Assembly (NCBI RefSeq): GCF_016765775.1
Contig: NZ_JAESVN010000008.1
Location: 1-64,000, forward strand
DNA length: 64,000 nucleotides
From: Szabonella alba
GTDB taxonomy: Bacteria; Pseudomonadota; Alphaproteobacteria; Rhodobacterales; Rhodobacteraceae
Direction: 5' to 3'
The translations under genes were made by a program, and so were the position numbers. Below, in pieces: positions 516 to 6,316 of this stretch. The notes beneath the pieces were generated by a model, which had not been told where the DNA came from, did no database searches, and worked only from the letters and a program-made list of their open reading frames with translations. Numbering within the stretch: position 1 is the stretch's first letter; each line of letters starts with the position of its first letter.

Positions 516-764
516 ATGATAATCGCGCCTGCATATCCCATCAGAAGCCTTCGGCAAGCCGGGTCCGTCCTGCGCGCCAGGCGTGCTTCGCGCAGGATCA
601 GCCAGAAGCAATTGGGGCAGATGACAGGAACGGCACAATCTACCATCTCGGACATCGAGAATGGCGTGGTGTCGGTCAGCCTCGATGTCTATCTGCGCCT
701 CCTGGAAGCTTTGGATGCAGAGCTGTCAGCGACCGATCGACTGGTCGACCGGGACATGACCTGA
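516..764 (+). CDS. hipB: HipB-like antitoxin, XRE-family DNA-binding protein
   Basis: This 82-residue protein is almost entirely one helix-turn-helix domain of the Xre/Cro type. Residues about 14-68 include SQKQLGQMTGTAQSTISDIENG, which places glutamine and serine contacts in the recognition helix. It lies one base upstream of a HipA kinase gene, the standard antitoxin-toxin arrangement. By family precedent it binds HipA and represses the operon through the palindrome at 455-471. No Shine-Dalgarno sequence precedes the ATG, which fits the leaderless transcript predicted from the promoter. Confidence 0.88.
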   Translation: MIIAPAYPIRSLRQAGSVLRARRASRRISQKQLGQMTGTAQSTISDIENGVVSVSLDVYLRLLEALDAELSATDRLVDRDMT

Positions 765-765
765 G

Positions 766-2091
766 ATGGCGCGTAGTGCCCGCGCTGCTCGCGGTACACG
801 CCAGAACAAGACCGCAGTCTGGTACGAGAGATCCAGAGTAGGCACGCTGGCGCGTGCGACCGATGGAGCGATCAGCTTCACCTATGATCCTGCATGGCTC
901 GTGTCCGAGACAGCCTTTCCTGTGGCCAGCGCCTTGCCGCTGTTGAAGGCCAGGTGGCAAGGCCATCCCGTGGTCGCGGCCTTCGACAACCTTCTGCCCG
1001 ACGCGGAGGGTGAACTGCGCGAAAAGATCGCCGCGCGCGTTGGTGCGCAGGGCAAGGATGTATTCTCGCTTCTGTCGGTGTTGGGGCGCGATTGCGTCGG
1101 TGCGCTTCAATTTCTGCCGATGGATGAAGCCCCTGCCGAGCAGGACATGCAGTATCGGATCATCTCGGAAGAAGAGATGGTCGCCGATCTAAAAAATCTC
1201 GCGGCTGCCCCCCTCGCACAAAGTGACGATGAGGATTTCAGGATTTCCATCGCAGGCGCGCAGGAAAAGACTGCCTATCTGCATGTGAATGGTCAGTGGG
1301 CAAAGCCGCGCGGCATCACGCCCACCAGCCATATCTTTAAGACACCCATGGGCATCCTGCCCGGCCCGGACCAGATCGACTTAAGCGACAGTGTCGAAAA
1401 CGAACTGTTCTGCATGACCCTTGCACGGGAAATCGGGTTGCCCGCCGCGCATGTCGAGAAGATCGTCCTTCCCGGGCAAGTAGTACTGTCAGTCGAACGG
1501 TTCGATCGGGTTTGGCAGGGTGAGACGCTAAAACGTTTGCCACAGGAGGATATTTGCCAGTCGTTGGGTTACCCCTCAGCTATGAAGTACCAAAAGGTGG
1601 GCGGCCCCGGCATCGCGCAGATCATGGAGCTTTTGCGGGAATCTGATACACCGATTGAGGATCGGGAGACCTTCTTCCAAGCGCAGATTTTCTACTTCCT
1701 GATCGGCGCGTCGGATGGCCACGCTAAGAATTTTAGTCTGCGTCTGGGACGGCAGGGCCGCTTCAGCCTGGCACCCCTGTATGACATCCTGAGCGTCGCT
1801 CCAGTCGTTCGCGCCGGGCGCTTGCAGCGCAAGCGTTACCGGCTCGCCATGTCGGTCGATGGCCATTACGGCGTCGACGAGATCGTGCCCCGTCACTTCG
1901 AGTCCGAAGGGCGCGCTGCAGGTCTTCCCAAAGGCCGCGCATTGGAGTTGCTGCAGGACATGACCGATCGGCTGGGTCCGGCGCTGGAGTGCGCGATGGT
2001 GGCAGTCGGCGCTCAGGTGCCCCAAAGCGTCAGTGACCCGATAGCAGATGACGCGATGCAGCGGGCGGCACAGGTCAAGGAACTGCTTTAG
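766..2091 (+). CDS. hipA: HipA-family serine/threonine kinase toxin
   Basis: The product (441 aa) has the HipA N-terminal subdomain (about 15-120) followed by the kinase core. Visible motifs are SIAGAQEK with the conserved loop serine at 161, the ATP-binding lysine in HIFKTP (K192), the catalytic SDGHAKNFS (D317, N322) and the metal-binding aspartate in LAPLYD (D340). In E. coli HipA the loop serine is autophosphorylated and the target is glutamyl-tRNA synthetase; the target here is unknown. All kinase residues are present, so the toxin looks intact. The start follows the hipB stop by one base and is presumably translationally coupled. The 3' end overlaps the convergent MobC-like gene by four bases. 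Confidence 0.92.
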   Translation: MARSARAARGTRQNKTAVWYERSRVGTLARATDGAISFTYDPAWLVSETAFPVASALPLLKARWQGHPVVAAFDNLLPDAEGELREKIAARVGAQGKDVFSLLSVLGRDCVGALQFLPMDEAPAEQDMQYRIISEEEMVADLKNLAAAPLAQSDDEDFRISIAGAQEKTAYLHVNGQWAKPRGITPTSHIFKTPMGILPGPDQIDLSDSVENELFCMTLAREIGLPAAHVEKIVLPGQVVLSVERFDRVWQGETLKRLPQEDICQSLGYPSAMKYQKVGGPGIAQIMELLRESDTPIEDRETFFQAQIFYFLIGASDGHAKNFSLRLGRQGRFSLAPLYDILSVAPVVRAGRLQRKRYRLAMSVDGHYGVDEIVPRHFESEGRAAGLPKGRALELLQDMTDRLGPALECAMVAVGAQVPQSVSDPIADDAMQRAAQVKELL

Positions 2092-2663
2092 GGATCCGGC
2101 CCCTTGGTTGCCAAACCTGCTAGCGCCTTGTCGACCTCTCGCGTCATCGCAGCTTGTTTTGCCTCCCAGAGGGTGCGGAAGTCTTCGACGAAATCGACAA
2201 AGAACCCCGCGAAGGTGCGGATAGTGGTCATGTCTTCGACGGTGAAAGGGATGGGGCGGCCGCGCAGCTTGGCCTCGTTCAGTTTGCGGGCCACTTGGTT
2301 GATTGCGGTGCCGTGTGTCTTAATCTCTGCGCCCCAGTCTTGAATCTGGTCGATCACGCTCTGATCGGCCGGACGCAGCAGGACATCCGCAGCACCCATC
2401 AGACTACGCAGCGCGGCTGGGTAGTCCGTGATGCCCCGCTTCACCATCCCGTCCTTGAAGCCCGCCAGTTCGCGTCTACTGACGCGTAGGCTGATCGTTC
2501 GGGTGAGCGCCGGGTGCGCGCCTTGGGCCTTGTTCAACGTGTTGTAGACCGTCCGGCGCGAGACCCCGAATTGGCGGGCAAGTGCCTTGACGGACGTGCC
2601 TTCGGCGCGGGCTTCGATGATCTGGCGGCGTTCGTCGATGGTCAGTTTGCGATGTTGGCGCAT
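2088..2663 (-). CDS. MobC-like plasmid mobilisation protein with an N-terminal HTH
   Basis: This 191-residue protein has two parts. Residues 1-50 form a resolvase-type helix-turn-helix (TIDERRQIIEARAEGTSVKA, then FGVSRRTVYNTL). Residues about 55-190 resemble MobC/relaxosome accessory proteins, with ISLRVSRRELAGFK and the helix GTAINQVARKLNEAK. MobC proteins bind oriT and help the relaxase nick DNA. No relaxase is visible in the window, so this may be an orphan of a mobilisable element or a regulator. No strong ribosome binding site precedes the ATG. The gene points toward hipA and ends inside its last codons. Confidence 0.7.
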   Translation of the reverse strand: MRQHRKLTIDERRQIIEARAEGTSVKALARQFGVSRRTVYNTLNKAQGAHPALTRTISLRVSRRELAGFKDGMVKRGITDYPAALRSLMGAADVLLRPADQSVIDQIQDWGAEIKTHGTAINQVARKLNEAKLRGRPIPFTVEDMTTIRTFAGFFVDFVEDFRTLWEAKQAAMTREVDKALAGLATKGPDP

Positions 2664-2952: not shown

Positions 2953-3816
2953 TCATGCCGCCAGCCCCGCCGCGCGCAGCTGGCCATCGGTCACCAACCC
3001 CGCCGTCACCAGCGCCGTTACCTGCGGGGCGGTGATGTGTTTGCACATCGGGCTGCGGTCGCGGACCCAAGCGGCCAGCCGGACGTGGTGGTCGGCTGTG
3101 AGGGCGGTCTGCGCCTGCCGTTTCTCGGCCAACGCATCGAGGAAGCGCTGCCACCGCCGGTCGGCAAACCAGTTATCCGCGAAACAGACCTTCGACCTCG
3201 TGAAACCCTCGCTCTCGGTCGCATAGGCCTGCACAGCGCGCAGCAGGTCGTCGGGATCAACGCCCTCCTTCACGGCCTCCTCGATCCGGACCAGACACGC
3301 CGCCTTGCCGCGCTGGCGGTCCTTCGGGTAGGCGCCCAAGATCTTCTCGAACCTTTCATCCTCCACCGCCGCCGCCTCCGCGCGCTTGCGCGTAGGTGGT
3401 TTATGGATGGTTTCAGGGTGGTTTGGGGTCCACCCTGGACCCCGTACGCCGTCCACGGTGGCCCCCGTACCGGGTTCAGTCTGGACGGGGTCCACTGTGG
3501 ACCCCGTCCCCTCATCGGGTTCGGTCATCGATTCCAGCGCCATCACGCGCGCCAGCACGATCCGGTAGATGACTGTGAAACCATTCTTGCAGGGGCGGCG
3601 CCCGGTCTCGATCAGGATACCCTCTTTCAGGAAATCGCTGATCGTCCGCTTGACTGTGCTTTCGCCCAGCTCGGTGTGGCGTTGGATCGTGCCCTTGGAG
3701 CACCAGATGCCCGAGCCGTCATCGCTCGCCTTGTCGGCGAGGAACATGATGATCTGTTTGCGCGCGGCACTGCCGAAGCGGCGTTCGGCGCATTCGTTCG
3801 CGACGCGCCAACTCAT
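2953..3816 (-). CDS. Phage/plasmid-type replication initiator-like protein (winged HTH)
   Basis: This 287-residue protein has an N-terminal winged helix-turn-helix (about 10-95; CSKGTIQRHTELGESTVKRT lies in the HTH). A proline- and glycine-rich linker (about 100-145) follows, then a C-terminal helical domain starting near FEKILGAYPKDRQRGKAA and ending with FADNWFADRRW. This order, with a YP..GKAA motif and a late W..RRW motif, is typical of phage O-like or plasmid replication initiators that load a helicase. The linker is encoded by palindromic 18-bp repeats (3428-3507). The start is the ATG at 3816, preceded by TTGTACAG direct repeats. Function is inferred from architecture; a plain HTH regulator is the alternative. 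Confidence 0.6.
   Translation of the reverse strand: MSWRVANECAERRFGSAARKQIIMFLADKASDDGSGIWCSKGTIQRHTELGESTVKRTISDFLKEGILIETGRRPCKNGFTVIYRIVLARVMALESMTEPDEGTGSTVDPVQTEPGTGATVDGVRGPGWTPNHPETIHKPPTRKRAEAAAVEDERFEKILGAYPKDRQRGKAACLVRIEEAVKEGVDPDDLLRAVQAYATESEGFTRSKVCFADNWFADRRWQRFLDALAEKRQAQTALTADHHVRLAAWVRDRSPMCKHITAPQVTALVTAGLVTDGQLRAAGLAA
3397..3424. repeat. Three TGGTTT motifs at exact 11-bp spacing
   Basis: TGGTTT occurs at 3397-3402, 3408-3413 and 3419-3424, one DNA helical turn apart and on the same face. The triplet lies inside the initiator-like gene, four bases from the first 18-bp iteron. It is a candidate protein-binding or unwinding element of an intragenic origin. Confidence 0.5.
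3428..3507. repeat. 18-bp palindromic-core iterons inside the initiator gene
   Basis: Three copies of GTCCAC-NN-TGG(A/C)CCCCGT lie at 3428-3445, 3451-3468 and 3490-3507. A weaker copy is at 3474-3491. Each has the dyad TCCA..TGGA or a close variant. They encode the linker of the initiator-like protein (TGSTVD, TGATVD, VRGPGWT). In phage lambda the origin iterons likewise lie inside the O gene. Confidence 0.65.
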
Positions 3817-3851
3817 TGACGGGCCCCGCGAGGGCCTAAACCGGCCTCAAC

Positions 3852-3870
3852 TTGTACAGGTTTTGTACAG
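3852..3870 (-). promoter_or_regulatory. Direct repeat TTGTACAG at 11-bp spacing upstream of the initiator gene
   Basis: TTGTACAG occurs at 3852-3859 and again at 3863-3870, one helical turn apart. Each copy contains the palindrome TGTACA. The pair sits about 40 bases upstream of the start codon at 3816 and is a candidate operator or binding site for the HTH protein. Confidence 0.45.
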
Positions 3871-3971
3871 AAATCCTGTCTGCCGCCCCAGATTTCCCCG
3901 GGAATCAACTGGGCGTTTCCGCAGCCGCTTTCACAAGCCCCTGACAAAACGCCATATTTTATTGGGTTTTC

Positions 3972-4048
3972 TGGTGACCCCGGCAGGATTTGAACCTGCA
4001 ACCTGCCCCTTAGGAGGGGGCTGCTCTATCCAGTTGAGCCACGGGGCC
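3972..4048 (-). tRNA. tRNA-Arg (anticodon CCU)
   Basis: On the minus strand the sequence folds as a cloverleaf. The acceptor GGCCCCG (5' end at 4048) pairs with CGGGGTC, the D stem is GCTC/GAGC, and the anticodon stem GCCCC/GGGGC encloses loop CTCCTAA with anticodon CCT. The T arm is GCAGG-TTCAAAT-CCTGC. The discriminator is A, and CCA is encoded at 3972-3974. It reads the AGG arginine codon. Arg tRNA genes are common integration sites, and here the gene's 3' end faces the accessory region on the left. Confidence 0.96.
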
Positions 4049-4121
4049 ATCCGCCTCTTTCATGCTGGCAAATCGGCGCTTGTGCAAGCCGGGTGCGCCC
4101 GCGATGGGCAAAAAAGCGAGA

Positions 4122-4151
4122 GGGGGGATGCGATTGGCCCACCATCCCCCC
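4122..4151. terminator. Hairpin GGGGGGATG/CATCCCCCC with flanking T-tracts on both strands
   Basis: A 9-bp perfect stem (4122-4130 with 4143-4151) is followed on the plus strand by TTTT and, a little further out, on the minus strand by TTTTTT. It lies between the divergent tRNA and LacI-family genes, so it terminates no obvious transcript and may simply insulate them. Confidence 0.4.
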
Positions 4152-4166
4152 TTTTGCCGCGTCCTG

Positions 4167-4198
4167 ATCCCGGACGCCGGGGCGTCCGTTGCCGGGAT
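4167..4198. repeat. Nested inverted repeat (GGACGCC-GG-GGCGTCC inside ATCCCGG/CCGGGAT)
   Basis: A perfect 7-bp hairpin (4172-4187) is nested within a second 7-bp inverted repeat (4167-4173 and 4192-4198). The arms share bases, so the two structures are alternatives. It lies upstream of the LacI-family gene and has no assigned role. Confidence 0.4.
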
Positions 4199-4246
4199 GC
4201 GATCCGCCTGATCACAGGGAATGATCCCTTTGAACCGGCCAGAATT

Positions 4247-4260
4247 TGTTAGCGGTAACA
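4247..4260 (+). promoter_or_regulatory. GntR-type operator TGTTA-GCGG-TAACA
   Basis: The 14-bp dyad TGTTAGCGGTAACA closely matches the TGTTACC-GGTAACA boxes bound by gluconate-type LacI-family repressors such as E. coli GntR. It lies 83 bases upstream of the GTG start of the LacI-family gene, which points to autoregulation. Confidence 0.65.
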
Positions 4261-4342
4261 TAGATGTGGAACGAGGCTTGGACAAGCCCGGCTTTTGGCG
4301 CTAACAGACAGAACGTCGTTCCAGTTCCGCGAGGCCCGCCCC

Positions 4343-5404
4343 GTGACCCGATCCCCTGATGCCCTGCGTGGTTCCGATCTGCGTCGTCCGCTGACGCTGC
4401 GCGATGTGTCCGAAGCATCAGGCGTCAGCGAAATGACGGTCAGCCGTGTGCTGCGCAACCGGGGCGATGTGTCCGAGGCGACGCGCGAAAAGGTGCTGAA
4501 TGCCGCGCGAAACCTGGGCTATGTGCCCAACAAGATCGCGGGTGCCCTGGCCAGCCAGCGGGTCAATCTGGTCGCGGTCATCATCCCCTCGCTGTCGAAC
4601 ATGGTCTATCCCGAGGTGATGACCGGCATTTCGGCGATGCTGGAAGATACCGGCCTGCAACCCGTTGTCGGCGTCACCCATTACCAGCCCGACCGCGAAG
4701 AGGCGGTGCTGTATGAAATGCTGTCCTGGCGGCCCTCGGGCGTGATCCTTGCCGGGCTGGAACACAGCGATGCCGCGCGGGCCATGTTGTCCAATGCCGG
4801 GATCCCGATTGTCGAAATCATGGATGTGGACGGCCAGCCCGTGGATTCGGTCGTGGGCATTTCGCATCGTCGCGCGGGTCTGAAAATGGCCGAGGCGATC
4901 CTTGCGGCGGGCTATCGGCGCATCGGGTTTCTGGGCACGATGATGCCCTATGACCACCGCGCCCGCAAACGGATGGAGGGGCTGCAAGAGGGCCTTGCCA
5001 GGGCCGGAATTGTGCTGGCCGATCAGGAATTCTATTCCGGCGGCTCGGCCCTGCTGAAAGGCCGCGAGATGACGGAAACCATTCTGGCGCGCTCACCTGA
5101 TCTGGATTTTCTGTATTATTCCAATGATATGATCGGGGCTGGCGGTCTGCTTTACTGTCTCGACAAGGGCATTGACGTGCCCGGGCAACTGGGGCTTGCC
5201 GGGTTCAACGGTGTGGAACTGCTGGACGGGCTGCCCCGGCAACTGGCAACCATGGATGCCTGCCGGGCCGAAATCGGTCGCATCGCGGCCGAGATCATTG
5301 CGGGCAAGCGTCCCGGAATGGCAGGGGGCCGCGTCATCGGGGGTGAACAGGTGGAACTGACGCCCAAGCTGCAGCCGGGCGATACAATCCGCCGGGCGGG
5401 CTGA
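4343..5404 (+). CDS. LacI-family transcriptional regulator, gluconate repressor (GntR) type
   Basis: The 353-residue protein has an N-terminal LacI helix-turn-helix (LTLRDVSEASGVSEMTVSRVL) and a hinge helix (NKIAGALASQR). A periplasmic-binding-protein-like sugar-sensing domain fills the rest. It resembles GntR/IdnR-type gluconate repressors. The GTG at 4343 is preferred because GAGG lies eight bases upstream; a TTG at 4295 is an in-frame alternative with no ribosome binding site. No gluconate gene is adjacent, so any targets other than itself are elsewhere. It converges with fabI. Confidence 0.85.
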   Translation: MTRSPDALRGSDLRRPLTLRDVSEASGVSEMTVSRVLRNRGDVSEATREKVLNAARNLGYVPNKIAGALASQRVNLVAVIIPSLSNMVYPEVMTGISAMLEDTGLQPVVGVTHYQPDREEAVLYEMLSWRPSGVILAGLEHSDAARAMLSNAGIPIVEIMDVDGQPVDSVVGISHRRAGLKMAEAILAAGYRRIGFLGTMMPYDHRARKRMEGLQEGLARAGIVLADQEFYSGGSALLKGREMTETILARSPDLDFLYYSNDMIGAGGLLYCLDKGIDVPGQLGLAGFNGVELLDGLPRQLATMDACRAEIGRIAAEIIAGKRPGMAGGRVIGGEQVELTPKLQPGDTIRRAG

Positions 5405-5446
5405 GCGGTCCGCAGCGCCGCTCCATCCGGTCGGCCCCGCGACACC

Positions 5447-5497
5447 TCGATTTTCCGGCAAGATTGATTTTCCGGCAAGATTGATTTTCCGGCAAGA
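5447..5497. repeat. Three tandem copies of a 17-bp unit (TTGATTTTCCGGCAAGA)
   Basis: Units at 5447-5463, 5464-5480 and 5481-5497 are identical except for one base in the first. They lie in the gap between the convergent LacI-family gene and fabI. No hairpin is formed. Such repeats are prone to copy-number change. Confidence 0.9.
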
Positions 5498-5527
5498 GCG
5501 GCGCAGCGAAGGCTCCGCCCTTCCCGA

Positions 5528-6316
5528 TCAGATATTCTCGGCCTTCGGCATGCCCAGAACATGGAAACCGCCATCGACGCGAAGCACTTCGCCGGTCGTG
5601 TGCATCCCGTAATCGGAACACAGGAAAACCGCAGCCCCCCCCACCGATTCCAGCGTGGCATTGCTGCCAAGCGGCGCATTCGCCTCGGTATGGCGATAGG
5701 TCGCCCGCGCCCCCCCGATGGCAGCCCCCGCCAGCGTCTTCATCGGACCGGGCGAGATGGCGTTGACGCGGATCGCCTGCTGGCCCAGATCGGCGGCCAG
5801 ATAGCGCGTCGCACTTTCCAGCGCGGCCTTGGCCACCCCCATCACATTGTAATTCGGCGTCACGCGGTTCGACCCCTGAAAGGTCAGCGTCACAAGGCTG
5901 CCGCCTGCAGGCATCAGCTCTGACGCGCGGCGGCTGACATCAATGAAGGAAAAGCAGGAAATATCCAGCGAATTGGCGAAATTCCGGCGGCTCGTGTTGC
6001 TGAACCGCCCCGTGAGTTCGGCCTTGTCGGAAAAGGCGATGGCATGGATCAGAAAATCCATCCGGCCCCAGCGATCCTTCAGCGACGCGAAACAGGCATC
6101 AAGGCTGGCATCGTCCGACACGTCCACATCGACCAGAAAATCCGACCCGACCGAGGCCGCCAGCGGTTCCACCCGTTTGCCGAACGCCTCACCCTGATAG
6201 GAAAAGGCAAGCTCTGCCCCCTCCTGCGCCAGGGCCTTGGCAATGCCCCAGGCAATCGAGCGTTCATTCGCGACGCCCATGACAAGCCCGCGTTTGCCCT
6301 TCATCAGATCGGCCAT
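5528..6316 (-). CDS. fabI: Enoyl-[acyl-carrier-protein] reductase (NADH)
   Basis: FabI performs the last reduction of each fatty-acid elongation cycle. The 262-residue protein is a short-chain dehydrogenase with the FabI nucleotide motif GVANERSIAWGIA near the N-terminus. Catalytic Tyr156 and Lys163 are in PNYNVMGVAKAALE. Numbering matches E. coli FabI exactly, but the second active-site tyrosine (Tyr146) is phenylalanine here (TLTFQGSN). The gene starts four bases after fabB and has AAGGGG as ribosome binding site. The two genes form an operon. Confidence 0.95.
   Translation of the reverse strand: MADLMKGKRGLVMGVANERSIAWGIAKALAQEGAELAFSYQGEAFGKRVEPLAASVGSDFLVDVDVSDDASLDACFASLKDRWGRMDFLIHAIAFSDKAELTGRFSNTSRRNFANSLDISCFSFIDVSRRASELMPAGGSLVTLTFQGSNRVTPNYNVMGVAKAALESATRYLAADLGQQAIRVNAISPGPMKTLAGAAIGGARATYRHTEANAPLGSNATLESVGGAAVFLCSDYGMHTTGEVLRVDGGFHVLGMPKAENI

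Follow-up and report, generated by a model that had tools for sequence, protein, structure and literature searches.

Comparative evidence for an initiator gene containing its own replication origin in a tRNA-integrated element of Szabonella alba

Comparison of homologous sequences argues strongly that an O-like replication initiator gene of Szabonella alba contains its own origin. The gene, located in the window (the whole stretch of 64,000 nucleotides that was analysed), very probably represents a complete replicon within one reading frame, in which an initiator carrying its own origin would replicate an element that is integrated at a tRNA gene and later excised. An earlier note on this DNA had proposed the double role of initiator and origin, and the proposal is supported by the synonymous constraint on the linker, the matches to O-like proteins and an order of parts like that in lambda, from which replication initiation is what we infer. 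The features are collected in Table 1.

Table 1. Positions of the initiator gene, its proposed origin and the neighbouring parts of the carrier element within the window.
Feature	Position	Strand	Basis or remark
O-like replication initiator gene, 287 aa, carrying the proposed origin	2953..3816	-	PHROG matches and AF2 two-domain model
N-terminal winged helix-turn-helix, codons 1-96, proposed iteron-binding domain	3529..3816	-	AF2, PDB wHTH matches
Linker under synonymous constraint, codons 103-150	3367..3510		
Iteron 1, GGGGTCCACTGTGGACCCC	3487..3505	on +	Core of a perfect 27-bp palindrome, 3483-3509 (13+1+13)
Weak fourth, half-conserved site, GTCCAGACTGAAC	3474..3486	on coding strand	Centre 3480
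Iteron 2, degenerate in this genome (3 mismatches)	3448..3466		Intact in most close homologues
Iteron 3, GGGGTCCACCCTGGACCCC	3425..3443	on +	
Candidate DNA unwinding element, three 11-mers CCAAACCACCC TGAAACCATCC ATAAACCACCT	3394..3426	on coding strand	Directly after iteron 3
GC-rich dyad, CGCGCAAGCGCG	3381..3392		Near end of constrained region; junction in domain-swapped relatives
C-terminal helical domain, codons 152-287, proposed replisome-recruiting part	2956..3363	-	AF2
tRNA-Arg(CCT), attachment site	3972..4048	-	3' end is the element boundary
HTH protein, next in the element after the initiator gene; looks MobC-like by eye (GTAINQVARKLN)	2088..2663	-	Matches to HTH models alone (Pfam HTH_23 and others)
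HipB/HipA toxin-antitoxin pair, element cargo	516..2091	+	Pfam HipA_C 7e-48, Couple_hipA, HTH_3

Results

The initiator protein

The protein matches the PHROG profiles phrog_270 (replication initiation, E 6.9e-22) and phrog_391 (O-like, 5e-11), and phrog_1032 and phrog_678 match as well. The best match spans most of the protein, and its place among the O-like PHROGs is given by the N-terminal winged helix-turn-helix (wHTH). O-like viral structures also resemble it. In the AlphaFold2 (AF2) model, built on an alignment of 35 homologues, residues 1-96 are folded as a winged helix (helices H17-29, H41-48 and H52-65, wing E68-86), residues 98-151 have pLDDT <50 and form the linker, and residues 152-287 are helical. 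The N-terminal wHTH and C-terminal helical domain claimed in the earlier note thus agree with the model, with a disordered linker between them, and the repeats that were said to encode the linker do all lie within this low-pLDDT segment. The N-domain is near-invariant among homologues, and the C-terminal domain is common to relatives with other N-domains. A PDB sequence search with the protein gave no match, and a PDB fold search gave general wHTH matches only, all to residues 1-99. A second phrog_270-like match is present in the same genome (G000:C8:26002-26370, E 2e-15), perhaps in another element.

Iterons and the adjacent unstable stretch

The iteron unit is 19 bp long and is composed of the 9-bp half-sites GGGGTCCAC and GTGGACCCC around one free central base. 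Iterons are centred at 3496, 3457 and 3434, with the weak fourth site at 3480, resulting in a spacing of 16, 23 and 23 bp. Three 18-bp palindromic repeats at 3428-3507 had been described before; the three repeats are real, but the unit is 19 bp, Szabonella alba has a degraded middle copy, and the range resolves into the three intervals of Table 1. A weaker fourth repeat, also described, is indeed present and weak, and in several C-type homologues it forms a perfect 13-bp palindrome. A search of the 4.2-Mb genome for GGGGTCCANNNTGGACCCC, allowing ≤2 mismatches, gave the two good iteron copies and nothing else. These two copies are modestly unusual in the single sequence (p about 0.08 versus synonymous-codon shuffles), and the iteron pattern has 8 matches in the window versus 3.4 expected. 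Odd palindromes of 19 bp were poorly captured by a generic half-site score based on 8-mers, and also by a palindrome test that assumed even centres, which was replaced. The excess over chance in the single sequence is only modest; the decisive evidence for the repeats is comparative.

The 11-mer stretch that follows iteron 3 has the lowest stability in the gene by nearest-neighbour energy, with a median rank of 0.3% in 94 homologues and a rank of 1.8% in the Szabonella alba gene. It is only moderately A+T-rich and displays few synonymous changes among homologues.

Selection on the linker DNA

Homologues were present in 71 of 295 sampled family genomes, each from a different genus, and in 80 named contigs. 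In a test of 95 different homologous genes, synonymous divergence over codons ~103-150 was 0.12-0.38 of expectation and 0.8-1.4 elsewhere, a 4- to 10-fold drop that coincides exactly with the linker; the homologues are related, and the pair counts behind these ratios are not independent. The linker constraint was 0.15, 0.13 and 0.25 of expected within clades A, B and C, respectively, and 0.26-0.33 between clades. Outside the linker, the value was about 1.1 of expected, with no equally long segment below 1.06. Examined codon by codon, synonymous variability in the linker was highest at T107, T120 and H133 and moderate at P115, G116, G126 and P140. Palindromes 1 and 2 are centred on the third bases of T107 and T120, respectively, and palindrome 3 on position 2 of codon 128, where the residue itself varies (R/Q/L/G). 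The freest bases of the linker are therefore the palindrome centres and a few spacer positions. Such constraint, together with the free palindrome centres, implies that the linker is selected as DNA first, and the repeated sites in it are under DNA-level selection. The expectation in the earlier note that homologues would keep the repeats at the DNA level, synonymous sites included, was borne out strongly and repeatedly.

Covariation of the iteron core with the N-terminal domain

The half-site core is TCCA/TGGA in clade A, mostly TTCA/TGAA in clade B and GCCA/TGGC in clade C, where the A/B/C type labels were assigned by a simple rule. Several iteron copies in one gene change together, sharing the core of the clade. 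The iteron type requires 4 changes on the N-domain tree versus 7 on the C-domain tree, both of which are quick trees with many weak branches and in which L072 and L102 are intermediates. In the sequences compared, then, the iteron core differs between clades and tracks the N-terminal winged-helix domain. At residue 60 most genes have S/T/N in clade A, I in clade B and R in clade C, and helix 52-65, which holds this residue, should include the recognition helix.

Relatives with swapped domains

Some relatives have the common C-domain from about residue 135-149 onward and an unrelated wHTH before it. Their linkers contain other palindromes, TTTGCCC..GGGCAAA in group D and GTCTCA..TGAGAC in group E, and linker-only synonymous constraint is again observed (0.00-0.46 in group D, 0.09-0.44 in group E). 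The linker position corresponding to the 11-mer stretch is also A-rich in both groups. Between one C-type and one E-type gene, DNA identity stays at the background level of 38-56% as far as the GC dyad around codon 142 and is 64-91% beyond it. Other distant relatives have repeated linker palindromes of their own, such as the four copies of GGGTGAAGGAGATTCACCC in L144. It is an evenly balanced proposal that wHTH, cognate iterons and unwinding element form one exchangeable cassette, in which initiator and origin specificity evolve together; recombined onto the common C-terminal domain at the conserved intragenic GC dyad, it would let integrative mobilizable or conjugative elements (IMEs/ICEs) switch replication type, perhaps incompatibility group, by a single crossover. 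The swapped cassettes offer a natural experiment on initiator-origin recognition, that is, on which wHTH residues read which iteron.

The carrier element

The initiator gene begins inside the 3' end of tRNA-Arg(CCT), at a distance of about 155 bp, and the same arrangement is found in many homologues. In five relatives, direct repeats of the tRNA end, 43-51 bp long, enclose elements of roughly 8-30 kb. The initiator gene (rep) comes first inside the tRNA boundary of these att-bounded relatives and a tyrosine integrase comes last where seen; between them lie a PF03432 relaxase in L120, VirB4 and an SLT transglycosylase in L124, and cargo. In the genome of Szabonella alba itself, a second att copy is located at G000:C48:14979, after an integrase on contig C48, and contigs C51 and C48 probably contain the two ends of one element. 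Within this split element a relaxase was not seen. The MobC-like/HTH gene next to the initiator gene is conserved in A-type elements. Judged by its boundaries and by the genes of its relatives, the carrier appears to be of the IME/ICE type, with integration at a tRNA, direct repeats and a tyrosine integrase. A phage carrier was rejected, and the carrier does not look like a phage, because the relatives bounded by att sites contain genes for an integrase, a relaxase, VirB-type proteins and cargo.

Several further observations concern the element and its relatives. Between rep and the MobC-like gene, at 2770-2950 of the window, dense degenerate repeats of ~14 bp (GACGCGATGCRC-like) are present, possibly an oriT or control region. 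On contig C48 (L130), positions 3295-5990 encode a multi-ubiquitin/E2 protein followed by a ThiF-JAB protein, with a DprA-like gene nearby; this ubiquitin-like conjugation operon is probably cargo of the same element. Beyond the second att copy, L130 15002-15100 is similar to the rep upstream region of the window; a tandem element, or what remains of one, may follow there. Two B-type copies (L068 and L105) lie about 24 kb apart on one contig (CANMIX010000013), apparently in tandem elements. The IMG/VR 'viral' contigs L002 and L003 carry the initiator gene, L003 also a relaxase-family gene, and such contigs may be IMEs mistaken for viruses. A 54-kb plasmid of Sulfitobacter, which carries a distant O-like gene (L115), was considered as proof of a free replicon and rejected, a RepC gene also being present. 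In that distant gene, L115 4370-4450 contains a long inverted repeat along with A+T-rich DNA at the same linker position.

Discussion

Taken as a working mechanism, the N-terminal winged helix, probably dimeric, would recognise the 19-bp palindromes in the DNA that codes for the protein's own linker. Once several copies were bound, the neighbouring 11-mers would open, and the helicase and the host replisome would be brought in by the C-terminal domain. The element would excise by tyrosine recombination at the tRNA, and the excised circular form would replicate from the intragenic site, during or after transfer. If this is true, a large family of mobile elements that are not phages has an intragenic origin of the lambda type, and these integrated elements possess a replication system within a fragment of about 1 kb.

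A wHTH fold is common among transcription regulators, and palindromic operators are typical of dimeric repressors, so the protein could instead be an autoregulator or incompatibility factor that binds operators in its own gene and blocks transcription, with replication starting elsewhere or never. This is improbable: the sites lie ~300-390 bp inside the gene, the conserved unstable stretch after them is constrained in the same way, they do not recur elsewhere in the genome at ≤2 mismatches, and the PHROG matches of the protein are to replication initiators. The neighbourhood raises another thought, namely that the sites serve as the transfer origin or centromere of the element, since the gene resides in a mobilizable-type element and adjoins a MobC-like gene or relaxase. 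That the sites covary with the wHTH of an initiator-like protein, and resemble the lambda ori in spacing and position, makes this very improbable.

Conservation of the linker DNA might also be attributed to an overlapping antisense gene or to RNA structure. In most homologues one antisense frame does run for about 75-78 codons without a stop, and the palindromes could form hairpins. Yet the freest synonymous positions are palindrome centres and spacers rather than every third base, families D and E exhibit the same linker-only constraint with unrelated motifs, and the copies have one half-site sequence in common, which pairing alone would not require; we regard this explanation as extremely improbable. 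An initiator gene with its origin in the linker remains the preferred reading.

Comparison with known systems

A close likeness is that to lambda O, in which wHTH, linker iterons, easily melted stretch and C-domain follow in the same order. The lambda ori iterons adjoin an A+T-rich tract (PMC7466680), and the four in the O gene (L183:187-1086) occupy codons 117-145, with starts 20/24/23 bp apart; here they occupy codons 104-131 at a similar spacing (centres 16/23/23 bp apart). However, lambda O belongs to a phage module with an adjacent P gene, while relatives of the present element contain relaxase/T4SS genes. The lambda O profile phrog_277, which lambda O itself matches at 1e-152, was not among the matches of the initiator, direct pairwise alignment of the two proteins gave no similarity, and a helicase loader gene P is not adjacent, the next genes being MobC-like/HTH, hip or relaxase. 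Membership in the lambda O family proper was rejected on these three grounds. The O-like initiator of the earlier note thus stands as regards the PHROG matches and the lambda O order, with two corrections: the protein lies outside that family, and its carrier looks like an IME/ICE and not like a lambda-type phage.

Other initiators also contain their origins. In pSK41 Rep (RepA_N) the ori occupies a central part of rep whose encoded residues the protein can do without (PMC5703833); RepA_N initiators differ in belonging to Gram-positive plasmids, and the RepA_N Pfam domain had no match in the present protein at E≤1. RepC of the repABC plasmid p42d, with oriV within repC, where silent mutations of an A+T-rich region abolish replication (PMC3155836), shares both the intragenic oriV and the occurrence in Alphaproteobacteria. 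It differs in that p42d repC is without iterons (PMC3155836) and encodes about 400 aa, and the PF03428 RP-C domain likewise had no match in the initiator at E≤1. Integrated elements that replicate when excised are known from SGI1 and the SXT/R391 ICEs (PMC7433901, PMC4489591), although SGI1 has its oriV downstream of rep and another type of initiator. The alternative Rhodobacterales replicases RepQ, RepY and RepW, tested by cloning in Phaeobacter inhibens, with RepY assigned to RepL and RepW to Rep_1 (PMC9025767), are of other families and act on free plasmids. A description of the present initiator or element family was not found in the literature searched, and may exist elsewhere. Lambda O, pSK41 Rep and RepC already provide examples of an intragenic origin, and the layout is not a new principle. 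What is new is the non-phage element family, found in ~25% of the sampled Rhodobacteraceae genera, and the exchange of wHTH, iterons and candidate unwinding element as one cassette.
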